DNA of 64,000 nucleotides from contig JASHOR010000131.1 in assembly GCA_030041005.1 (NCBI GenBank), positions 1-64,000 on the forward strand. Direction: 5' to 3'. This DNA is from Xanthobacteraceae bacterium (GTDB taxonomy: Bacteria; Pseudomonadota; Alphaproteobacteria; Rhizobiales; Xanthobacteraceae). A program made the position numbers and the translations under genes. The notes below the pieces were generated by a model, which was given only the letters and a program-made list of their open reading frames with translations, did no database searches and was not told the origin of the DNA. Position 1 is the stretch's first letter. Every line of letters starts with the position of its first letter. Of this stretch, positions 47,856 through 58,981 are shown piece by piece.

Positions 47856-48830
47856 TCACTCGACCGTGAGGCCCAGCTTTTTGATCAGGGCGGCCCATTT
47901 GCCTTCCTCGCGCTTGATGTTGGCGGTGTAGGCTTCGGGCGTGCTTGGCGCCGGATCATCACCGGCCTCAACCAACCGTTTCTTGAACGCTTCGGAGGCC
48001 AGCGCCGTGCGCAGGTCCTTGTTGAGCCGATCGACGATCGGGCGCGGCACGCCCGCCGGAGCAACCAAGCCATAATAGAGCACCGCATCAAAGCCGGGCA
48101 GGCCGGATTCGGCAGCGGTGGGCACATTGGGCAGCGCCGCGGAACGCTTTGTGTCGGCGACTGCGATCGCGTGCAGTTGTCCACCCTGCACGTTGCTGAT
48201 CGCCGCCGGAATCGTGTCAAAGCCGATCGGCACATGATTGCCGATGACGTCCGTCGTCAGCGGCGCGGTGCCCCTGTAGGTAACGACAGTCGTGTGGACG
48301 CCGGCGACCATGTTGAACAACTTGACTGCGAAGTAAAGCAGCGTCGGCGAAGGCGGAGTGCCGATCGCGAGCTTGCCCTGCTCTTTCTTCGCGAGCGCGA
48401 TGACATCGGTCAGCGACTTCGCTGGAAACGACGGATTGGAGACGATGAAAACCGGCGTCGAGGCGATCAGGCCGATTGGGGAAAAATCCTTGTTGACGTC
48501 ATAATCCGCGTTGGGGCTTAGGCCGATGCCGGTCATTATGATTCCCAACGTGTAACCATCCGGGGCGGCATTGGCGATGTCGCGTGTTCCTATCATGCCG
48601 CCGGCGCCACCGCGATTTTCGACGATCACCGTCTGGCCGAGCGCTGCCGACAGGCGCTGCCCGACCAACCGGCCGACCAGATCGACGCCACCGCCGGGTG
48701 GAAAGGGCACGATGAGGGATATCCGCCGGGCGGGATAATCTTGTGCAACCGCCTGCGTGAACGGTATGAGAGTCGAACCGATGACGAGCGCGCTCGCCGC
48801 AAGGCCGGCGCGAAACATACTCGACGCCAT
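47856..48830 (-). CDS. Bug/TctC-family tripartite tricarboxylate transporter substrate-binding protein
   Basis: A 324-residue periplasmic binding protein with signal peptide (MASSMFRAGLAASALVIGST, cleavage near AVAQDYPA). Family blocks are ISLIVPFPPGGGVDLVGRLVG, ENRGGAGGMIGTRDIANAAPDGYTLGI and PTAAESGLPGFDAVLYYGLVAPAGVPRPIVDRLN. ATG at 48830 has GGAG upstream. It is the last gene of the leftward unit nitrilase-MFS-amidohydrolase-Bug (52968 to 47856). No TctA/TctB membrane genes are nearby, as is common for Bug proteins; it may act as a receptor or use a distant permease. Confidence 0.9.
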   Translation of the reverse strand: MASSMFRAGLAASALVIGSTLIPFTQAVAQDYPARRISLIVPFPPGGGVDLVGRLVGQRLSAALGQTVIVENRGGAGGMIGTRDIANAAPDGYTLGIIMTGIGLSPNADYDVNKDFSPIGLIASTPVFIVSNPSFPAKSLTDVIALAKKEQGKLAIGTPPSPTLLYFAVKLFNMVAGVHTTVVTYRGTAPLTTDVIGNHVPIGFDTIPAAISNVQGGQLHAIAVADTKRSAALPNVPTAAESGLPGFDAVLYYGLVAPAGVPRPIVDRLNKDLRTALASEAFKKRLVEAGDDPAPSTPEAYTANIKREEGKWAALIKKLGLTVE

Positions 48831-48874
48831 GATGATTTTTCTCCAGCGTGACTCGAGACTACCGAGGACGAGCT

Positions 48875-49930
48875 TCATTGCGCGGCCACTTGCGGTAGTG
48901 CGCGGCCGGTCGCATCGGTCGGTAACCGCAGGAATTCCGCGGCCGTAACGCTGTAAACGCGTTGACGCTGCTCTGCGGTCAGCGATTGCTGGGTTTCGAT
49001 CTCGGCGACCGGCGACGTTGCGTTCATGTCGAAAGGAAAATCGGTGCCGAACATGACGCGTTCGGCGCCAACGGTATCGATAAGGAATGCCGATGAGCGA
49101 GCAGAGTGAATGATCGTGTCGTAGTAGAAGCTTTTGAGATAATCGCTTGGCGGACGTTTGATGTTGCGGCGACATTCCGGACGCGCCCGGTAGCCGGCAT
49201 CGAGGCGGCCGATGATGTAAGGGAGGAATCCGCCCGCTTGACCGAGACAAATCCGCAGGCGGGGAAACCGATCGAGCACGCCGGTGAAGATAAGTTGCGC
49301 GGCGGCGAGGGTGGTGTCGAGCGGGAATCCGATCAGATTGCGCAGGTGATAATCGGCCATCCGTTCTTGGCCGGCGACGTTGTGGGGATGAATGAGCAGC
49401 GCGAGACCAAGCGACTCTATTGCGGCGTAGAAGTCGAAATGTCTGGCGTCGTCCAAACCGAGGCCGTTAACGTTGGATCCGATCTCGACGCCCAGAAGGC
49501 CAACCTCCTTGATCCGCTCCGCCTCGCGGATGCTTCCCGCTACATCTTGCAGCATCACGGTGCCGAAGCCGAGCATCCGGCCCGACCGATGCCGCACCGC
49601 TTCGGCGATGCCGTCGTTTTCCAACGCCATCAAGGCGCGCGCTTCGGCGACGTTGGACCAGTAATAAAAGACGAACGGCGGCGCCAGCAGCACCTGTCGG
49701 TCGATCTGCTCGCGGTCCATATGCGCAAGCCGCAGGTCAATGTCATAGAAGGTCGGCTTTATGGGCCCGTAGGGCCGCTCCGGCGTATGAACGAAAATGC
49801 CGACCCCGGCGCGATCCTCATACGGTGTATCGCAGTGCGCACCGACCCGCCGGATTTCGGCGAGCACCGCCGGGGAAATATAGTGGCTGTGGATATCGAT
49901 ACGCGGCATCGGTTGGTCTCGAACCGCCAT
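48875..49930 (-). CDS. Amidohydrolase family 2 (ACMSD-like metal-dependent hydrolase/decarboxylase)
   Basis: A PF04909 TIM-barrel enzyme of about 351 residues. The N-terminal metal motif is IDIHSHYISP, His in LALLIHPHNVAG and Asp in ERVMFGTDFPFDMN complete the predicted site. This family includes aromatic decarboxylases such as ACMSD and hydroxybenzoate decarboxylases, and some hydrolases. ATG at 49930 (MAVRDQPMPRIDIHSH) is my choice; 49909 gives a start directly at PRIDIHSH. The gene is in the catabolic operon between the MFS carrier (36-base gap) and the Bug protein. Confidence 0.87.
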   Translation of the reverse strand: MAVRDQPMPRIDIHSHYISPAVLAEIRRVGAHCDTPYEDRAGVGIFVHTPERPYGPIKPTFYDIDLRLAHMDREQIDRQVLLAPPFVFYYWSNVAEARALMALENDGIAEAVRHRSGRMLGFGTVMLQDVAGSIREAERIKEVGLLGVEIGSNVNGLGLDDARHFDFYAAIESLGLALLIHPHNVAGQERMADYHLRNLIGFPLDTTLAAAQLIFTGVLDRFPRLRICLGQAGGFLPYIIGRLDAGYRARPECRRNIKRPPSDYLKSFYYDTIIHSARSSAFLIDTVGAERVMFGTDFPFDMNATSPVAEIETQQSLTAEQRQRVYSVTAAEFLRLPTDATGRALPQVAAQ

Positions 49931-49966
49931 ACCGTGATCTTCACGGCCAACGGCGCGGGGCAACGG

Positions 49967-51286
49967 TCAGGTCATCTTCCCTTGCGTCTCCGGCACAATA
50001 ATCGCGCCGACGATATAGAGCGCGATCGCCACCAGGAGAAACGTGATCACCGTTGATGGGATATGTTCCACGGTCCCGCTCGCGAGCGTGACAAAGGTCG
50101 GCATCATGCCGCCGAGAGCGAAACCGGCGTTCCAGGACAGCGACGTCCCGGTGGCGCGAAGCTTCGTCGGGAAACGTTCATTGAGGAAGATGATGATCGG
50201 AGCCAGCACGGCATTTCCGCAGAACGTCAGTATCAAAGCATACAGGTAGATCAGGCCGAGTGAATCCGACGACAGTCTTGCCAGCAGCATATAGCAGGAC
50301 GGTATCAGAATCAGGTTCGCCACGCCGAGGAACAGAAAGACGCGCTTGCGGCCGAAGCTGTCGGAAAGATGGCCGAATATCGGAGTTGCGGCAATCGCGG
50401 CGAAATTGGCGATGACCAGGATGCCGCCGAGTTCTTGACCCGGAACTTTGTTGATCAGTTTCAGGAATGCAGGCAGGTAACTCTGGGTTAGATAGATCTG
50501 TATTCCCGCGCCGATGACGATCATCATGTTGACGACGTTGATGCTCGCATATTTCCGGGTGAAAAGATCGCGCAACGGCGAACGGCTCTGTTGTCGCCGC
50601 TGTTCGGCAGCGAGCCAAAGCGGCGACTCTTCTACGGCGCGATAGATGAACGCGCTGAGGATCGCTCCGACGAATCCACCAAAGAACATCACACGCCATC
50701 CCCAGGTGAGAAAGCTGTCGCCCGGGAAAATGTGCGAAACGATGAAATACATGGCGGAGGCGAGAAGCGAACCGATAGCTGCGCCGGTGCCGATGATACC
50801 CGATACCAGCCCGCGCAAACGCGGCTCGACGGTTTCGGTGCCGATGGTGTGCGACGACGACACGACGCCGCCGACAAAGATGCCCTGCAGCACGCGCAAC
50901 AGGATGAAAAGGATCGGCGCCAGCAAGCCGACCTGATTGATCGTCGGCAGCAGCCCCATCAGGCCGGTAACGGTGCCAATGCCGCCAACCGCGACGATCA
51001 TCGCGCGCCGTCGGCCGTTGCGATCGGCATAGGGCCCGAATATTGCGGAACCCAGCGGACGCATGACCAGTGTCACGGCATAGGCGGCATAGACGGCCGC
51101 CAGCGAGAGAAGCTGGCTATTGCTGGGAAAGAAGATCGCGCCGATGGTCGGAGCGACGAACAGGATAATAAACAGATCGAATAGATCGCAGGACCATGCG
51201 AGTGTCGAGCAGATCGCAGTATTGATGACCTGGCGTTGGCTGGGGCGACGGGGGGTACCTGAAGGGTTCGCAAGATCGGTGCTCAT
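49967..51286 (-). CDS. MFS transporter, metabolite:H+ symporter type
   Basis: A 439-residue inner-membrane carrier with twelve hydrophobic segments. The loop 2-3 motif reads GPYADRNGRRRAMI, preceded by VTLVMRPLGSAIFG, and the loop after helix 5 contains LRGLVSGIIGTGAAIGSLLAS. WSCDLFDLFIILFVAPTIG replaces the EWYDF motif of the MHS group. It likely imports the acid or amide processed by the neighbouring nitrilase and amidohydrolase; the substrate itself is unknown. It starts 32 bases after the nitrilase stop. Confidence 0.88.
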   Translation of the reverse strand: MSTDLANPSGTPRRPSQRQVINTAICSTLAWSCDLFDLFIILFVAPTIGAIFFPSNSQLLSLAAVYAAYAVTLVMRPLGSAIFGPYADRNGRRRAMIVAVGGIGTVTGLMGLLPTINQVGLLAPILFILLRVLQGIFVGGVVSSSHTIGTETVEPRLRGLVSGIIGTGAAIGSLLASAMYFIVSHIFPGDSFLTWGWRVMFFGGFVGAILSAFIYRAVEESPLWLAAEQRRQQSRSPLRDLFTRKYASINVVNMMIVIGAGIQIYLTQSYLPAFLKLINKVPGQELGGILVIANFAAIAATPIFGHLSDSFGRKRVFLFLGVANLILIPSCYMLLARLSSDSLGLIYLYALILTFCGNAVLAPIIIFLNERFPTKLRATGTSLSWNAGFALGGMMPTFVTLASGTVEHIPSTVITFLLVAIALYIVGAIIVPETQGKMT

Positions 51287-51318: not shown

Positions 51319-52968
51319 TCAGGCCGTGATCGGTTGGATCAATGGATCGTAGAATTGCGGGCGGCGGTTGCGGACGAGGTCGGTCCCGGGTCGAATCTGC
51401 TTATCCCGGGCCCATGCAAGATTGAGGTAGGAAAACACGTAGTCGCCCTGATCGGTGCCGGCCTTGTTCGGTGTCGCGGCATTGGGGAAGATCACCGTGC
51501 TGCCGCCCGGATGCGAGGCGTCAGCGCGATTGGCGGCGACCACGAAAATCTTGTTCTCCAGGGCTCGCTCGCGCGCAAACAGATCGGCCTCCCGCGGGGC
51601 GCGGAAATTCGACGGGAGCGCGACGATGTCGGCGCCCATGCAGGTCAGCACGCGCGCGACCTCGAAGAAGCAGACTTCGTGTCCAATCATGAGGCCGACA
51701 TTGCCGAACGGAAGCTGCAATACGCGATAGGCCTCGCCGGGCGTGGCCCAATCGCGCTCCTGATCGGTGAGATGGACCTTGCGGTACCTGTCCGCGACAG
51801 CTCCGTCCGGTCCGACCACGAAAACGGTGTGGTAGAGCTTTCCGGCTTCGGCCTCGACGAGATCGAGGACGTACCAGGCGTTCCAGCGTTTTGCGATTGG
51901 ACCGAATGCGTTGAGGACGCTCGCGGTCTCGCCGGCCGATTGCCTCGCCTGCGCCGCTGACGGCCGCGGTGCGGTCATGAACAGCTCCGGAAAAACGACA
52001 AGTCCGGAGTTTTCCTTGCCGGCCTCATCGCCATGCTTGAGTGCGCGCTGCAACGTCTCGGCGCTGTTACCGTCGTGATTGCAGACCTGCGCCGGCGAAG
52101 CGAGCACCGCGAGGCTGGCCGACACGATGGGTGTCGCGGCGACTTTCGCATATGGCAGGGCTTCGTACTTCTGGGTCAGCAGCTCGTAGGTCTTGGGCCG
52201 TCGGCCGCGCATCAGGCTGTCGGCGCGCTGCCGTACCGCCGCGACGTCCTCGGTATCGACGTCGGCATAAATAATCTCGTGATTGTGTTGGCTGCCGCGC
52301 ACGACAATGCTGCCGTCGGGGTGAATGATCTGGCTGTACCCCGGATAGGTAAGCCCTTCCTCGCGTCCGGCCTTGTCGGCGCAGACCATCCACAGCTCGT
52401 TCTCGCTGCCGCGGGCCGGCTCGTGGATTTCGTGCTGCTCGTGCGTCGTCGAGTTGGTGATATGGAGCAGAATTTCGGCGCCGTTGAGGGCTAGTATTCT
52501 CGCGCCTTCGGGAATACGCGCGTCGGCGCAGATGAACATGCCGATACGGCCGACCGGGGTATCGAACACCGGATAGCCGGTGTCCCCGACCGTGAAATAG
52601 AACGGGTCGAAATCGAACAGAAAGTTCTTCTGATATTTGCCGATCAACCCCTTGGGGCCGACCAGTACCGCAGAATTGTAAACCTTGTCACCGTCCTTTT
52701 CCGAAAGGCCGATCGCCACGTAAACCGACAATTCCTTGCAGAGCCTGCCGATATTCTCGGTGAACTCGCCGGGGATCGCGTCGCTGCACGAGACCGCATG
52801 GGCGCGGTCGCGCCAAACGTAGCCGGCATTCATGCACTCGGGGAACACGACGAGGCTGGCACCGTTCTTCGCCGCTTCGCGGACGTTGCGCAACACGCCG
52901 TCCAGGTTGAATTTTGTACGGTCAAGTTCCGAATAGGTCTGAATCGCGGCTACTTTGATTTTTGGCAT
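51319..52968 (-). CDS. Tandem-domain carbon-nitrogen hydrolase (two nitrilase domains)
   Basis: A 549-residue protein made of two complete nitrilase-superfamily domains. Predicted triads are Glu44 (LVVFPECMNAG), Lys114 (YQKNFLF), Cys147 (MFICADARIPE) in domain 1 and Glu328 (LVVFPELFMTA), Lys397 (YRKVHLTD), Cys433 (GHEVCFFEVARV) in domain 2. Both look catalytically competent. Known members hydrolyse nitriles, amides or carbamoyl groups; which applies is unknown. ATG at 52968 follows AAGGCAGAG. It heads the leftward operon ending at 47856, and a GACAC-N3-GTGTC operator candidate lies 56 bases upstream. Confidence 0.88.
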   Translation of the reverse strand: MPKIKVAAIQTYSELDRTKFNLDGVLRNVREAAKNGASLVVFPECMNAGYVWRDRAHAVSCSDAIPGEFTENIGRLCKELSVYVAIGLSEKDGDKVYNSAVLVGPKGLIGKYQKNFLFDFDPFYFTVGDTGYPVFDTPVGRIGMFICADARIPEGARILALNGAEILLHITNSTTHEQHEIHEPARGSENELWMVCADKAGREEGLTYPGYSQIIHPDGSIVVRGSQHNHEIIYADVDTEDVAAVRQRADSLMRGRRPKTYELLTQKYEALPYAKVAATPIVSASLAVLASPAQVCNHDGNSAETLQRALKHGDEAGKENSGLVVFPELFMTAPRPSAAQARQSAGETASVLNAFGPIAKRWNAWYVLDLVEAEAGKLYHTVFVVGPDGAVADRYRKVHLTDQERDWATPGEAYRVLQLPFGNVGLMIGHEVCFFEVARVLTCMGADIVALPSNFRAPREADLFARERALENKIFVVAANRADASHPGGSTVIFPNAATPNKAGTDQGDYVFSYLNLAWARDKQIRPGTDLVRNRRPQFYDPLIQPITA

Positions 52969-53024
52969 CTCTGCCTTACCTGCCCCCTGGCGACGGGAGA
53001 ATTTGGCAATATAGTGTCCTTTTG

Positions 53025-53037
53025 GACACCAAGTGTC
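53025..53037. promoter_or_regulatory. Operator candidate 1, GACAC-CAA-GTGTC (nitrilase operon side)
   Basis: GACACCAAGTGTC is a perfect 5-3-5 inverted repeat 56 bases upstream of the tandem-nitrilase ATG at 52968. It overlaps a second palindrome, GTGTCC-TTTT-GGACAC (53014-53029), so three half-sites are contiguous. A further half-site GTGTCAAC is at 53064. Sites 2 and 3 have the same architecture. Confidence 0.65.
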
Positions 53038-53146
53038 AACAAGCCTGAATGAGCCTTTATCCCGTGTCAACGATCATTTTTGCAGGGCTGAAGACGCGCC
53101 ACCACAGGCGGCGGTCGTCGGCATTTTTTCATTGAACGTCATGCGT

Positions 53147-53159
53147 GACACAGAGTGTC
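53147..53159. promoter_or_regulatory. Operator candidate 2, GACAC-AGA-GTGTC (aldolase copy 1)
   Basis: GACACAGAGTGTC lies 51 bases upstream of the class II aldolase ATG at 53211. It shares the extended context GTGACACA..GTGTC with site 3 upstream of the paralogous aldolase gene. The sequence after it (TTGGATGATAAAATACTTC) is AT-rich as expected for a promoter region. Confidence 0.65.
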
Positions 53160-53210
53160 TTGGATGATAAAATACTTCAAAATTAACCGTCGCAATGGAA
53201 GGATTGCACC

Positions 53211-53990
53211 ATGAACGTCATTGTCAGAGACAAAGCTGATTATCATGAGCAGACGACTCAACGGATGCAGCAGCATTTCGTTGTGCCGGAATGGACGGTG
53301 CGGCAGAAACTCGCGCTCGCGTGCCGGATGCTGGCGGCCGACGGTCACGATTCGGGGCTCGCCGGGCAGCTTTCTGCACGCGCCGCCAAGCCCGGCACCT
53401 ATTATATGTTGCGCTTCGGCCTGGGGCTGGAAGAAATCACCGCAGAAAACCTGCTGCTGGTCGACGATGACCTTAACGTGCTTGAGGGCGAAGGGATGCC
53501 CAACCCCTCGAATCGCTTTCATCTTTGGATCTACCGGGCGAAGCCGCGCGTCAACGCGATTACTCACACCCATGCCCCTCACGTGTCGGCATTGTCGATG
53601 ATCGGCGTTCCCTTGGCCGTCGCCCACATGGATACAAGTCTTTTTCATGAAGACTGCGCCTGGCTGCCAGTGTGGCCCGGCACGCCGATCGGCGACGACG
53701 AAGGCCGTATCATTTCGGAAGCAATAGGCGACAAGCGCGCTATCCTGCTCGCCCACCACGGCCAGTTGACGGCCTGCAGCAGCGTCGAGGAAGCGGCTGT
53801 TATGGCGATCTTCATCGAGCGCGCCGCACGCCTCCAATTGATGGCCATGAGCGCCGGGAAGATCCAATCAATCGACCCGCAACTTGCTGCCGAGGCGCAC
53901 GATTATCGTCTGAAGCAGCGTGCGATTGCCGCGACCTTCTACTACTACTCGCGCCGGGTCTTGCGTCAGGACAAAACAGTCATTGCCTGA
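53211..53990 (+). CDS. Class II aldolase/adducin family protein, copy 1
   Basis: A 259-residue cytosolic protein of the fuculose-aldolase/adducin fold, which uses a zinc ion held by histidines. The presumed ligands lie in AITHTHAPHVSALSM and LLAHHGQLTAC. Other conserved pieces are GLAGQLSAR and FGLGLEEITAENLLLVDDD. By hand count it differs from copy 2 (57704-58483) at about 34 of 259 positions, so they are recent paralogues. It is followed 83 bases later by a serine-glyoxylate-type aminotransferase gene. ATG at 53211 has GGAAGGA upstream. Substrate unknown. Confidence 0.88.
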   Translation: MNVIVRDKADYHEQTTQRMQQHFVVPEWTVRQKLALACRMLAADGHDSGLAGQLSARAAKPGTYYMLRFGLGLEEITAENLLLVDDDLNVLEGEGMPNPSNRFHLWIYRAKPRVNAITHTHAPHVSALSMIGVPLAVAHMDTSLFHEDCAWLPVWPGTPIGDDEGRIISEAIGDKRAILLAHHGQLTACSSVEEAAVMAIFIERAARLQLMAMSAGKIQSIDPQLAAEAHDYRLKQRAIAATFYYYSRRVLRQDKTVIA

Positions 53991-54073
53991 GCGAACCCCG
54001 ACGGCAAGGAGGCAAAACGGCGTCCTTGCCGGCAACCGCGCCGCGCATCACCACGTCACCACAGAGTACGCCG

Positions 54074-55267
54074 ATGACTCGCCATGCCGGTCGTCATTTT
54101 CTGCAAATCCCCGGCCCGACCAATACGCCGCTCGCCGTTCTTGCAGCCATTGCCAAGCCAACGATCGATCACCGCGGCCCGGAATTTGGTCTGCTCGGGC
54201 GCAGCGTGTTGGCCGGCATCAAGACAATATTCAAGACCAGCCAGCCCGTGGTGATTTATCCGGCATCGGGAACGGGCGCCTGGGAAGCGGCTCTCGTCAA
54301 CACGCTGTCGCCAGGCGACAAGGTGCTGATGGTCGAGACCGGGTGGTTTGCGACGCTGTGGAAGAAGATGGCGGCGCGCCTAAAGCTGGATGCGGAATTC
54401 ATCCCCGGCGACTGGCGCTCGGGCGTCGATGCGGGCAAAATCGCTGCTCGGCTGGCCGAGGACAGACAGCACCACATCAAGGCGGTGGCCGTTGTGCACA
54501 ACGAGACATCGACCGGTGTGACCTCGGACATTGCTGCGGTCCGCAGCTCGATGGACAGCGTCAAGCATCCTGCCTTGCTTCTCGTTGACACCATTTCTTC
54601 TCTCGCCTCGATGGACTACCGTCATGACGAATGGGGAGTGGATGTCACCGTTGCCGGTTCGCAGAAGGGGCTGATGCTGCCGCCTGGTTTGTCGTTCAAC
54701 GCCCTATCGGAAAAGGCCCGTAGAGCCTCCAGGACCGCCGGCCTGCCCCGCTCGTTCTGGGACTGGGAAGATATGCTGGCAGCCAATGAGACGGGCTATT
54801 TCCCGTACACCCCGGCAACCAACATGCTGCAGGGCCTGCAGGTCGCGATCGACCTGCTGCATGCGGAAGGTCTCGATTCCGTATTCGATCGCCATAAGCG
54901 CGCCGCAGAGGCGGTCCGGCGGGCGGTGCAGCATTGGGGCTTCGAAATTCAATGCCGCAACCCCGCCGAATATTCCTCTTCGCTGACCGCGGTTATCATG
55001 CCGCAGGGGCACTCTGCCGACCGATTGCGAGCTGAAATCCTTGAGCGCTGCAATATTTCGCTCGGCAACGGATTGGGACCCTTGAGCGGCAAGGTCTTTC
55101 GTATCGGCCACCTGGGCGATTTCAACGATCCGACGATCACGGCAACGCTGACCGGCATCGAAATGGGATTGCGCGTGGTCGGCGTGCCCCATCGTCCTGG
55201 CGGAGCCGAGGCAGCAGTGGCCTATCTCGCCGGCAACGGCCCCCCGGTTGCGCAAGCTGCGGAATGA
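54074..55267 (+). CDS. Class V PLP-dependent aminotransferase, serine-glyoxylate aminotransferase-like
   Basis: A 397-residue fold-type I enzyme. The opening RHFLQIPGPTNTPLAVLAAI and IDHRGPEF are typical of serine-glyoxylate and alanine-glyoxylate aminotransferases. The PLP Lys is in VTVAGSQKGLMLPPG; LLLVDTISSLASMDYRHDEWGVD and the phosphate-side segment PASGTGAWEAALVNTLSPGD are present. ATG at 54074; an upstream in-frame extension overlaps the aldolase gene and is rejected. It would move amino groups between serine or alanine and glyoxylate, connecting the island to C2 metabolism; this is inferred from family membership. Confidence 0.88.
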   Translation: MTRHAGRHFLQIPGPTNTPLAVLAAIAKPTIDHRGPEFGLLGRSVLAGIKTIFKTSQPVVIYPASGTGAWEAALVNTLSPGDKVLMVETGWFATLWKKMAARLKLDAEFIPGDWRSGVDAGKIAARLAEDRQHHIKAVAVVHNETSTGVTSDIAAVRSSMDSVKHPALLLVDTISSLASMDYRHDEWGVDVTVAGSQKGLMLPPGLSFNALSEKARRASRTAGLPRSFWDWEDMLAANETGYFPYTPATNMLQGLQVAIDLLHAEGLDSVFDRHKRAAEAVRRAVQHWGFEIQCRNPAEYSSSLTAVIMPQGHSADRLRAEILERCNISLGNGLGPLSGKVFRIGHLGDFNDPTITATLTGIEMGLRVVGVPHRPGGAEAAVAYLAGNGPPVAQAAE

Positions 55268-55571
55268 CTGCCGATCTGATGTAGAGATACGAGCCTCCGG
55301 ACGGCGAGCGTCATCACGGCCATCGCATCAAACCTCACTGAGCCGCTTTGACGGTGAGACAGGGTCGATCCGGATCCGCTTGGGCCCATCCTGGCATTGT
55401 TCAGTTCGCCGTCGGGTTGACTTGCGCGCGAGACGGCGTACGAACGCGCGGTGGCGTACGCCCGGGGTCGCCATTCGTCCAGATTTCCGCTTACACGCGG
55501 TGCAGCCGTATCTTTCCTCGCCGAACCCTATTCGGCGCGCATTAATCGTAAGGGACCCTAATTGGGACAAA

Positions 55572-56216
55572 GTGATAGTGGTCAAGCGAACTGACAACCG
55601 AATATCCGACGTCAAAGCGCGGAAGAAGCCTGGGCAGAATTATCGCGCCTTGGGTTTCAGGTCCGGCGGGGAAGGGATCGGCGCGCGCATCCGATTTCTG
55701 CGGCAGCAAAGAAACATGACTTTGGAACAATTGTCTGCATCGTCCAAACTGACCAAAAGCTTCGTTTCCAAAGTAGAACGCGGCGTGTCAGTCCCCTCGA
55801 TATCGACTGCAATGAGGTTGGCTGAAAGCTTCAAGATCACGGTCAGCCAACTTCTCGGCGAGGATCACTACGACGATGCCTTGTCGTTGGTCCGCAAGGA
55901 AGAACGGCGTTCGTTTATGCGACCCGGCAGCTCCTCCGGATACAATTATGAAATGGTTGCGGGCCCCAAGCGGTTTAAGCGCATGGAGCCGTACGTCATG
56001 CGGCCTCCACTCAAATTTCAGAACAAGCGCCTTTTCAAGCACGTGGGCGAAGAACTCATGTTCGTCTTATCGGGAAGGGTCGAGGTCGAAATCTCGGATC
56101 AGATCATCGAGCTGCGGCACGGCGATGCGCTTTATTTCGATTCGCATTTGCCTCACCGCTCGCGGTCGCTTGGCGGAAAATATGCCGAGGTTCTCGTCGT
56201 CGTCACGGAAGCATGA
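55572..56216 (+). CDS. XRE-family transcriptional regulator with C-terminal cupin domain
   Basis: A DNA-binding regulator of about 214 residues. The helix-turn-helix is RIRFLRQQRNMTLEQLSASS, followed by KLTKSFVSKVERGVSVPSISTAMRLAESF (about 37-85), and the C-terminal cupin effector domain has HVGEELMFVLSGRVEVEISDQIIELRHGDALYFDSHLPHRSRSLG. GTG at 55572 or 55578 are the plausible starts; upstream in-frame sequence back to 55248 is Arg-rich and not conserved. It is the only regulator between the two aldolase copies and so the best candidate reader of the GACAC-N3-GTGTC sites, though nothing in the sequence proves it. Confidence 0.88.
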   Translation: MIVVKRTDNRISDVKARKKPGQNYRALGFRSGGEGIGARIRFLRQQRNMTLEQLSASSKLTKSFVSKVERGVSVPSISTAMRLAESFKITVSQLLGEDHYDDALSLVRKEERRSFMRPGSSSGYNYEMVAGPKRFKRMEPYVMRPPLKFQNKRLFKHVGEELMFVLSGRVEVEISDQIIELRHGDALYFDSHLPHRSRSLGGKYAEVLVVVTEA

Positions 56217-56299
56217 AACCTTGGCGTCAGCTTCAAGGTTTTGTGGAACAAGCAAATGCCGGGTCAACGTTAACTGAAGCGTCGCGCCGGATCGCCGGC

Positions 56300-57622
56300 C
56301 TACTCCGGCATAGGCTCATGCGCCGTCTCGCGCGTGGATAAAACCGCCGTCAGGCTGACAAGAGCGAGCACCATGAGGTATGTGGAGATCGGCCAGGTTG
56401 CGCCGCCGAAATAATTCACCGAGACGGCTGCAATCAGCGGCGTTATGCCGCCGAAGATCGCGGCCCCGATCTGAAAGCCGATGGAAACGCCGCTGTAGCG
56501 CGCGTTGGTGCCGAACAGTTCCGGCATCAGACTGGCATGCATCGAATACATGATGCCTTGACCGAGGCTGATGCCCAGCGCCAGCGCCGGCAGGATCACC
56601 GCCGGATTGCGCGTGTTGAGCAGCCAGAACATCGGGAAGGCGGCGATCAGGCAGAAGATTGCTCCGGTGGCGAATACGGTGCGCCGGCCGAGCTTGTCGG
56701 AGAGGTAGCCGGCCAGCGGCACGACGACGATTCCGCATGCCGCTGCGAGCAGAATGGCGTCGAGCACGAACTGCCGCGGCATATGCAGACGATTGGTGAG
56801 ATATGACACTGCATAGATCGCGAACATGCCGGTCCACGCCACCTCGCAGGTCTTCAGGCCGATCGAGGTGTACATCGCACGCCGGTAGGTCGTCAGCACT
56901 TCCACCAACGGAACCTTCGCCTGCCTGCCGGCTTTCCGCATTTGTACAAAGGCCGGCGTTTCATGCAGCCGGTAGCGGATGAAAAGCCCGACCGCGACGA
57001 GGAGGATGCTCAGCAAGAATGGAATCCGCCACGCCCCGCTTAGAAAGCTGCCAGCGAATATCAGCGCCGTGAGGGCGAAGACGGCGTTGGCGATCAAGCG
57101 CCCGACCGGATTACCCAGTTGAACCAAGCCGCCGAACCAGCCGCGCCGATTGGCCGGCGCTGATTCGGCGACCATCAGGACGGCACCGCCCCATTCGCCG
57201 CCAAGGCCAAGCCCTTGTACCAGCCGAAGCGCAACCAAAAGAACAGGCGCCCAGATGCCGACCTGCTGATAAGTGGGGAGGCAGCCGACCAGGAAACTCC
57301 CGAGGCCCATGATCGTCATCGACAGCATCAGCATGTTGCGGCGACCAAAGCGATCGCCGAAATGCCCGAAGATGAGACCGCCCAGCGGTCGCGATAAGTA
57401 GCCCACCGCATAGACGCTGAAAGCGGAAACGACGCTGATGCGCGCGTCCGCCGAGGGAAAGAACAGTTTGCCAAACACCAGCGCGGCGGCAGTGCCGTAA
57501 ATCAGAAAGTCATACCATTCGATAACTGATCCGATGAGGCTCGCGGAGATGACGCGACCCATCGGAACCTCGGACTTGGCTTCCGGAGGAAATCCGGAAC
57601 GGGCGAGATTGGTGACCGCCAT
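56300..57622 (-). CDS. MFS transporter, MHS (metabolite:H+ symporter) family
   Basis: A 440-residue carrier with the MHS hallmarks: SLIGSVIEWYDFLIYGTAAALVF, RPLGGLIFGHFGDRFGRRNML and GLGLGGEWGGAVLMVAE. Twelve hydrophobic segments. Substrates of the family include dicarboxylates, shikimate and betaines; specificity here is unknown. It lies downstream of aldolase copy 2 on the same strand (81-base gap), so the pair is probably one operon under operator site 3. It converges with the XRE-cupin regulator. Confidence 0.92.
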   Translation of the reverse strand: MAVTNLARSGFPPEAKSEVPMGRVISASLIGSVIEWYDFLIYGTAAALVFGKLFFPSADARISVVSAFSVYAVGYLSRPLGGLIFGHFGDRFGRRNMLMLSMTIMGLGSFLVGCLPTYQQVGIWAPVLLVALRLVQGLGLGGEWGGAVLMVAESAPANRRGWFGGLVQLGNPVGRLIANAVFALTALIFAGSFLSGAWRIPFLLSILLVAVGLFIRYRLHETPAFVQMRKAGRQAKVPLVEVLTTYRRAMYTSIGLKTCEVAWTGMFAIYAVSYLTNRLHMPRQFVLDAILLAAACGIVVVPLAGYLSDKLGRRTVFATGAIFCLIAAFPMFWLLNTRNPAVILPALALGISLGQGIMYSMHASLMPELFGTNARYSGVSIGFQIGAAIFGGITPLIAAVSVNYFGGATWPISTYLMVLALVSLTAVLSTRETAHEPMPE

Positions 57623-57703
57623 GATCGAGTCCTCCCCAAAAGCCTTGCCGATCGAGCCAAAACGGGCGCGCGTTCTACGCGCGATAGCCGTTCGGCCCGA
57701 GCC

Positions 57704-58483
57704 TTAATTGATTATGGTTGGGTCGCGCCGGAGCGAGCGTCGAGCGTAGTAGAAGAAAGTCATAGCAATCGCCCGCGCCTTCAACCGATAATCGTGAGCC
57801 TCCGCAGCCAAAGCCGGATCGATAGCTTGGATTTTGCCGGCGCTCATCGCCATTAATTGCAGCCGCGCGGCGCGCTCGATGAAGAGCGCCATGACAGCCG
57901 CTTCCTCGACGCTGCCGCAGGCCGTCAACTGGCCGTGATGAGCGAGCAGAATGGCACGCTTGTTGCCGATCGCCTCAGAGATGATGCGGCCTTCCTCATC
58001 ACCGATTGGCGTGCCCGGCCATTCCGACAACCAGGCGCAATCGTCGTGAAACAAGCTCGTGTCCATGTGCGCAACCGCAAGCGGCACTCCGATCATTGAC
58101 AGCGCCGACACATAGGGCGCGTGCGTGTGGGTAATGGCGCGCACATGCGGCTTGGCACGGTAGATCCACAGATGAAAGCGGTTTGACGGATTAGGCATGC
58201 CGTCGCCTTCGAGCACGTTGAGGTCATCATCGCAGAGCAAGAGGTTTGCCGCGGTAATCTCCTCGAGTCCGAGGCCGAAGCGGAGCATGTAATAAGTGCC
58301 CGGCCTGTCGGCGCGGGCCGAGAGCTGGCCGGCAAGACCTGAATCGTGCCCGTCGGCCGCCAGCATGCGGCAGGCGAGCGCCAGCTTCTGCCGGGCGGAC
58401 CATTGCGGCACGACAAAATGCTTGTCCATCCGTTCGGTCGTCTGCTGGTGATAGTCGGCCTTGTCGCGAACGACAACGTTCAT
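57704..58483 (-). CDS. Class II aldolase/adducin family protein, copy 2
   Basis: A 259-residue paralogue of the protein at 53211-53990, with the same length and no gaps; differences cluster at residues 13-30 and at the C-terminus. The zinc-site segments AITHTHAPYVSALSM and LLAHHGQLTAC are kept. The ATG at 58483 has GAAAGGA a few bases upstream. Operator candidate 3 lies 38 bases upstream. Orientation is opposite to copy 1, so the two copies face each other around the aminotransferase, regulator and MFS genes. Confidence 0.88.
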   Translation of the reverse strand: MNVVVRDKADYHQQTTERMDKHFVVPQWSARQKLALACRMLAADGHDSGLAGQLSARADRPGTYYMLRFGLGLEEITAANLLLCDDDLNVLEGDGMPNPSNRFHLWIYRAKPHVRAITHTHAPYVSALSMIGVPLAVAHMDTSLFHDDCAWLSEWPGTPIGDEEGRIISEAIGNKRAILLAHHGQLTACGSVEEAAVMALFIERAARLQLMAMSAGKIQAIDPALAAEAHDYRLKARAIAMTFFYYARRSLRRDPTIIN

Positions 58484-58981
58484 GCGAAATCCTTTCGGTC
58501 ATGCCACCTCTTATCCCATGTGACACAATGTGTCCGCAGGCACGCCCTGTCAAGGCGCGCCGGAGGCGTGTCGTCTTGTCGCGGAACCGCAAAGGTCGTC
58601 GCAGCCGCTGCACTTGGTGCGCGCCGAAATCTTCATTGAGTCCACAAGGTTGGGCCGATGTGATGGTCCCGCCGTGCCGCTGATGAGCTGCCGCTGGAGC
58701 GGACACGGTAGATAATTACAGCGTGCCAAAAGCGACATCGCGCCTCACCCAGCGTTGAACCCACTGGTGTACGTTGGCTGAGAGCTGGTGGCGACGGGAC
58801 ATGCCGCGATCCCGCAAGTGACTGCTGGCGTTGCTGCCTGCGGCGGGCAATGAATTCTTCCAGACTTCTCAATCAGCGGCGCGGTTCTGTCAGAGCGAAT
58901 CGTCGTCCTTCAACAATTCGAATGGAAGCGAGCGAAGTAATGTAAAATCGGCCGGCGCGCGCCGCACAAGGGAGGGCAGTC
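58484..58981. other. Divergent intergenic region between aldolase copy 2 and Bug protein gene
   Basis: About 500 bases without a supportable gene. The left part holds operator candidate 3. The rest is mixed sequence with short shadow frames on both strands and no repeat family that I recognise; no second GACAC-N3-GTGTC site is seen near the rightward Bug gene. The ribosome site GGGAGGG (about 58970-58976) of that gene is at the right end. Confidence 0.5.
58522..58534. promoter_or_regulatory. Operator candidate 3, GACAC-AAT-GTGTC (aldolase copy 2)
   Basis: GACACAATGTGTC is a perfect 5-3-5 inverted repeat 38 bases upstream of the aldolase copy 2 start (minus strand). With flanks it reads TGTGACACAATGTGTCCGC, sharing GTGACACA with site 2. 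It is the third occurrence of the motif, again directly upstream of an island gene. Confidence 0.65.

Follow-up and report, generated by a model that had tools for sequence, protein, structure and literature searches.

The DNA considered here is a stretch of 64,000 nucleotides from a Xanthobacteraceae bacterium (assembly GCA_030041005.1, contig JASHOR010000131.1, positions 1 to 64,000), hereafter called the window. In it, a short inverted repeat, GACAC-N3-GTGTC (GACACNNNGTGTC), precedes three putative transcription units of a gene island that also encodes an XRE-cupin regulator. Exact copies of this dyad are found at 53025-53037, 53147-53159 and 58522-58534, lying 56, 51 and 38 bases from start codons that are all ATG, just as an earlier note on this DNA had placed them. 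The window contains no further exact copy and none with one mismatch, and an exact copy appeared in 0 of 100 dinucleotide shuffles. The three dyads differ in their spacers, which had also been pointed out before, and in their flanks. The first, here called operator 1, is on the minus strand and reads GACACTTGGTGTC towards the nitrilase operon; its edge together with two flanking T residues forms TTGACA on the coding strand. An overlapping inverted repeat, GTGTCC-TTTT-GGACAC, described in the same note, is indeed present at 53014-53029 (no strand assigned) and occurs once in the window. It gives operator 1 a third half-site, six bases off and in inverted order (53014-53037), which may allow extra or cooperative binding. 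Operator 2 (GACACAGAGTGTC, plus strand) stands before aldolase copy 1 and is overlapped by the -35 hexamer of a promoter-like sequence, GTGACA-17-TAAAAT with TG before the -10 (53145-53173, plus strand); this is a match to consensus only, and the sole promoter-like one in 52930-53230. Operator 3, on the minus strand, reads GACACATTGTGTC towards aldolase copy 2.

The genes that would be controlled from these sites number about eight, their operon membership being presumed from strand and spacing. Unit 1, under operator 1, would begin on the minus strand with a fused tandem carbon-nitrogen hydrolase of the nitrilase type (51319-52968; PF00795 in two stretches). It would continue, 32 bases further on, with an MFS transporter (49967-51286; PF07690 and the table of open reading frames (ORFs)), and then with an amidohydrolase-2 family protein (48875-49963; PF04909) and a TctC-type solute receptor as the last gene (47856-49250; PF03401 and the ORF table). 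The TctC ORF as listed overlaps the preceding gene, and its true start is therefore probably further in. Unit 2, under operator 2, would comprise on the plus strand aldolase copy 1 (53211-53990; PF00596, and NF005484 over its cut-off) and a class V, BhcA-like aminotransferase (54077-55267; PF00266, with NF045640 at 453.7 bits, below the cut-off of 650). Unit 3, under operator 3, would comprise on the minus strand aldolase copy 2 (57704-58483; NF005484 over its cut-off), 86.9% identical to copy 1, and an MHS-like metabolite/H+ symporter of the MFS (56300-57622; TIGR00883 at 410.4 bits, below the cut-off of 443.45).

Judged by their sequences, both "aldolases" are members of the POD (pyruvic oxime dioxygenase)/ErgA family. 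Copy 1, a class II aldolase-type protein, is identical to PDB 8il8 at 126 of 249 positions (50.6%), which lies in the published range of 46.9% and up, and His119, His121 and His183 are kept in both copies. From its 261 residues and its N-terminus, 8il8 appears to be the POD of Alcaligenes faecalis, the N-terminus of which is given in PMC5216522 and nearly matches. According to that paper, POD is homologous to class II aldolases and uses Fe(II), PA0224 is a homolog at 46.9%, and the substrates of the family may be diverse (PMC5216522). Because of this family membership, the island probably handles an oxime, a nitrile or a related organic acid.

The regulator gene (55572-56216, plus strand, start codon uncertain) encodes an ErfA-type protein of 214 residues with an N-terminal HTH_3 domain (PF01381) and a C-terminal Cupin_2 domain (PF07883), both over cut-off, as in XRE-cupin repressors of about 200 residues. 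The predicted structure models the helix-turn-helix with confidence, and helix 62-69 is its recognition helix, with the sequence TKSFVSKVERG. All three dyads lie within 3 kb of the gene, in promoter positions. The protein is the sole full-length match to profile A2 in its genome at E 1e-4, the only other match being HTH-sized (C180:123508), and a PDB sequence search with the same profile returned 40 sequences, mostly HTH-only matches. The earlier note had named it as the only regulator of the segment; it is the sole one among the ten window ORFs that were classified with Pfam (47.8-59.9 kb).

The whole genome (4,914,083 bases in 188 contigs, 95.09% complete) contains four exact dyads, namely the three of the island and one at C180:87482. 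The latter was rejected as a regulon member; it lies 224 bases inside an ORF of 477 residues, about 29 kb past the third site. Simple base composition predicts 5.7 copies per genome, and the total is thus at chance level. What is unusual is the placement of the dyads, three of them in about 740 bp of intergenic DNA of one neighbourhood, and not their number. If positions are treated as independent, the probability of at least three dyads in a given 5.5 kb is approximately 4e-8 (approximately 8e-5 once the number of windows is roughly corrected for), and that of three in the intergenic DNA approximately 1e-10. The genome-wide scan proposed in the earlier note therefore gave a divided answer: no excess in count, and a strong upstream bias, with three of the four copies 38-56 bases before start codons.

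The search for near relatives of the regulator led to six other genomes (G005, G315, G212, G286, G451 and G452, the last two including loci L005 and L006), and in all of these except G286 an exact dyad precedes an island gene, so that the motif is kept in orthologous islands. In G451 and G005 it lies 36 and 40 bases before the aldolase, and in G315 and G212 inside the divergent gap between aldolase and regulator. Of the two dyads of G452, the first precedes a gene that by eye encodes a DctP-like solute receptor, and the second stands 45 bases ahead of an aldolase and an aminotransferase arranged as in unit 2; the order dyad, aldolase, aminotransferase is common to the window and this locus (L084). 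The island dyad is the sole copy in the genomes G005 and G315, and both copies of G452 are of the island type. Altogether 21 exact dyads were counted in 15 genomes, nine in regulon promoters and 12 elsewhere. Eleven of these 12 are inside mechanically called ORFs and one (G025:C11) is outside, and in the 2.8-6.5 kb fetched around them neither a POD-family gene (E 1e-50) nor an A2 regulator (E 1e-10) was present. Eight other genomes that were compared had seven exact copies in total, and the DNA retrieved around these contained neither a POD-family gene nor this regulator. The regulator itself is rare, being present in 5 of 391 genomes of the family at E 1e-40, its own genome counted. Searches of the order (397 genomes) and the class (385 genomes) at E 1e-60 gave no further close ortholog besides the window, and in the phylum (249 genomes, E 1e-25) the matches came from 17 other genomes and were without exception more distant.

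The association can be followed further by way of the recognition helix. For this, 63 XRE-cupins were classed by their helices, including distant relatives of approximately 36-41% identity among the plasmid hits fetched; duplicate loci (L014-L018, L027-L029 and L034) and profile matches under 95 bits were left out. An exact dyad is found within 3 kb of 25 of the 29 regulators with a TKS[YF]xSKxER helix and of 1 of the 34 with other helices, the latter being L079, at a distance of 1.6 kb. Within the TKS class the counts are 6/7 for the window family together with two named Alphaproteobacteria, 5/7 for Burkholderiales, 11/11 for family f233 and 3/4 for Actinomycetota; distant TKS-helix XRE-cupins with an adjoining dyad occur in Burkholderia, Paraburkholderia, Cupriavidus, Rhodococcus and family f233. 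The spacing of the arms is equally restricted. Of the spacers 0 to 12, just three occur between the arms around the 29 TKS regulators, namely N3 with 27 copies, N4 with two and N2 with one; 29 scrambled arms at N3 in the same neighbourhoods gave a mean of 0.38 and a maximum of 3. The 27 exact copies compare with three one-mismatch copies. Two of the four TKS regulators that have no exact dyad carry the same arms just upstream, with a spacer of 4 in Cupriavidus (L075) and of 2 in Variovorax (L076). The flanks of 28 exact sites, whose arms are identical by selection, favour ATGACACWWWGTGTCAT. As separate observations, Cupriavidus metallidurans L031 has arms at spacer 4 besides its exact N3 site, and the regulators of L075, L076 and L031 carry SKLERG, not SKVERG, in their helices.

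A comparison that takes the enzyme as its starting point leads to a similar picture. Among 40 distinct POD/ErgA aldolase loci, a dyad is present in 24 of 26 having a TKS regulator and in 1 of 14 without one (Fisher 1e-7); 21 duplicate loci and aldolase matches weaker than 1e-70 were left out, and L012 and L026, which are the same G025 locus, were counted once. Most of the 26 loci were first fetched via the regulator and the bulk of the 14 via the enzyme, and some of the enzyme-first loci span only 1.5 kb per side, from which farther regulators would escape. The lone locus with a dyad and no regulator lies on a G452 contig of 3.6 kb; the regulator of that genome sits on another contig. In terms of gene order, a TKS regulator and an aldolase followed by a DHDPS-family gene were seen at 11 f233, three Burkholderia and three Rhodococcus loci, and all 11 such f233 loci carry the exact dyad. 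The neighbours at L031, L075 and L076 (Cupriavidus and Variovorax) are an aldolase and a TctC receptor, and Prescottella L077 has neither.

XRE-cupin regulators with determined regulons have been described in Pseudomonas aeruginosa, where they repress neighbouring genes by binding to core promoters (PMC7901475). The same study gives palindromic motifs for the three of them whose consensus is determined, and the conserved target of ErfA is the operon next to erfA, ergAB (PMC7901475). The published ErfA site is ACAACACTTTGTGTCAA (PMC13001255). The window dyad shares nine of its ten arm bases with this site, one arm base setting them apart. The likeness to ErfA (PA0225) and ergAB extends to an HTH_3 and cupin regulator near a POD/ErgA-family aldolase, to nearly the same palindromic arms and to the presumed repression of neighbours. 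We take PA0224 to be ErgA and ergB to be the DHDPS-family gene, so that ergAB would presumably be an aldolase and DHDPS operon divergent from its regulator. The window differs in having three operators, about eight genes and an added nitrilase operon. Its regulator is not divergent from an aldolase and has no exact dyad of its own, and no aldolase-DHDPS operon divergent from it is present; a homolog of the Rhodococcus DHDPS-family protein was not found in the window at E 1e-10. The likeness to ErfA is one of operator and gene context rather than of compared proteins. The ErfA-type XRE-cupin repressor with its operator is a known kind of system, with a regulon that is enlarged here.

Taken together, we propose with a probability of about 0.82 that the XRE-cupin gene at 55572-56216 codes for a local repressor of ErfA type which reads GACAC-N3-GTGTC as its operator and controls the three transcription units. 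A dimer would bind the dyad with one recognition helix per arm, the dyad would overlap the core promoter so that RNA polymerase is blocked, and the block would be relieved when the cupin domain senses a metabolite ligand. Binding, repression, ligand and substrate are in this case predicted from sequence. That one regulon is controlled by one dyad-binding protein, with the XRE-cupin as the candidate, had been suggested in the earlier note, and the linkage of dyad and regulator across genomes supports this. Its estimate of at least seven genes fits the eight or so presumed here under the three promoters, and is less secure for the nitrilase unit. The one nitrilase ortholog found, in L006, lacks a preceding dyad and stands directly behind a GntR/FCD gene, so the case for dyad control of this operon comes from a single genome.

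The missing dyad and the GntR/FCD gene at L006 are among several points that speak against this proposal. There is no exact dyad before the regulator gene of the window, and most of its relatives carry a site in the regulator's own promoter region. A promoter scan around operator 3 revealed no consensus promoter. The cupin part of the structural model failed (mean pLDDT, the model's per-residue confidence score, 45.9). The regulator of G286 is 50% identical, yet its genome has no exact dyad, the nearest candidate being a one-mismatch site 2.4 kb away, and near the Prescottella regulator (L077) there is only a candidate with two mismatches. Two GntR/FCD genes lie close to the island of G212 (L020), which does carry the dyad. 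In addition, the profile by which relatives were found was built from site-bearing loci, and the sampled regulators are related, so that the Fisher values (2e-12 for the helix test and 1e-7 for the enzyme test) overstate independence.

These GntR/FCD genes raise the question whether the dyad is read by a protein encoded elsewhere, for example of the GntR type, the XRE-cupin being merely a neighbour. Regulators elsewhere in the genome, including GntR, were surveyed by profile A2 only, and Pfam covered ten window ORFs, among which no GntR protein was found. Nor does a GntR gene appear among the annotated genes of the three Rhodococcus loci that have both dyad and regulator. The dyad accompanies XRE-cupins of the TKS-helix class in two phyla and is absent from 13 of the 14 distinct POD loci without such a regulator, and the published site of ErfA differs only slightly from it; a foreign reader of the dyad is accordingly improbable. 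Somewhat less improbable, but still unlikely, is that the same regulator acts on the same sites by activation, or with both signs, instead of by simple repression. The varying distance of 38-56 bases between operator and start and the lack of a recognisable promoter around operator 3 would fit this. Promoter occlusion is favoured because a -35 hexamer shares bases with operator 2, TTGACA arises at the edge of operator 1, and the P. aeruginosa XRE-cupins with determined regulons repress their targets from core promoters (PMC7901475).

It is very unlikely, finally, that the repeat is a by-product with no binding protein, arising by chance clustering or by duplication of a promoter together with its aldolase. 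The close identity of the two aldolases and the chance-level number of dyads in the genome point in this direction, as does G452, where the two dyads share the spacer and the near flanks like a copied promoter. The window dyads, on the other hand, differ in both flanks and spacers, site 1 serves an unrelated gene, and scrambled arms never approached the 27 N3 copies found around TKS-class regulators. Repression by the XRE-cupin protein thus remains the preferred explanation.

Parts of the island resemble two clusters of A. faecalis, for which the regulatory system is stated as unknown (PMC8629993). As in the window, an MHS-type transporter accompanies the POD-family protein in the pod cluster and a TctC receptor accompanies it in the podh cluster; these clusters also carry a GST or HCCA-isomerase gene, of which there is none among the ten classified window ORFs (PMC8629993). 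PauR and PsdR of P. aeruginosa are likewise XRE-cupin repressors with palindromic sites, and PauR has several targets, so that a multi-promoter regulon is not unusual. The consensus sequences of ErfA, PsdR and PauR are quite different from each other (PMC7901475), and the pathways of PauR and PsdR differ from that of the island. No match to the island gene set was found in the literature, and no spelling of the dyad or the exact sites in literature text, supplementary motif tables being outside the scope of this search. The dyad may be among the 223 XRE motif clusters reported in PMC12565409, and passages of PMC6449761 and PMC9769523 describe other motifs.

A wider, more tentative suggestion, to which we give somewhat less than even odds, is that POD-family oxygenases in two phyla are governed by a common module made up of the TKS-helix XRE-cupin and GACAC-N(2-4)-GTGTC. 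Such a module could provide the regulator still missing for many pod-like clusters, and here it could have captured a nitrilase operon to give one regulon for oxime and nitrile use. Independently of this suggestion, a short recognition-helix sequence defines a class of XRE-cupins with a concrete predicted operator and a link to POD-family enzymes. The association of helix and operator across two phyla is in itself a useful prediction for pod regulation, and one such module has probably been extended over the nitrilase operon of the window.

Several minor observations were made along the way. The second domain of the tandem carbon-nitrogen hydrolase (51319-52968) is 27% identical to the first and has Gly in place of the cysteine of the ICAD motif, and may thus have lost catalytic activity; by eye, the same domain picture is seen in the L006 ortholog. 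In G451 the transporter gene between aldolase and regulator (L005, 2437-3538) is split over several frames, and is either broken or affected by a sequencing or assembly error. The island of G452 is apparently in pieces, with nitrilase, amidohydrolase and regulator on one contig (L006) and operator, aldolase and aminotransferase on another (L084). On a plasmid of Burkholderia stagnalis (L105), a POD-family gene is found among diiron oxygenase, ketosynthase-like and acyl-CoA dehydrogenase genes, with no TKS regulator or dyad in 6.8 kb; this looks like a biosynthetic cluster. In Cupriavidus metallidurans (L031, 6662), the exact dyad stands before a gene which lies downstream of the regulator and is MOSC-domain-like by eye. 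Directly upstream of the TRG-helix XRE-cupins of G077 and G036 (L024 and L025), next to a TctC gene and a POD-family gene, there is another inverted repeat, ACAAG-TTT-CTTGT, which may serve a sister class of helices as operator and hints at a wider code between helix and site.

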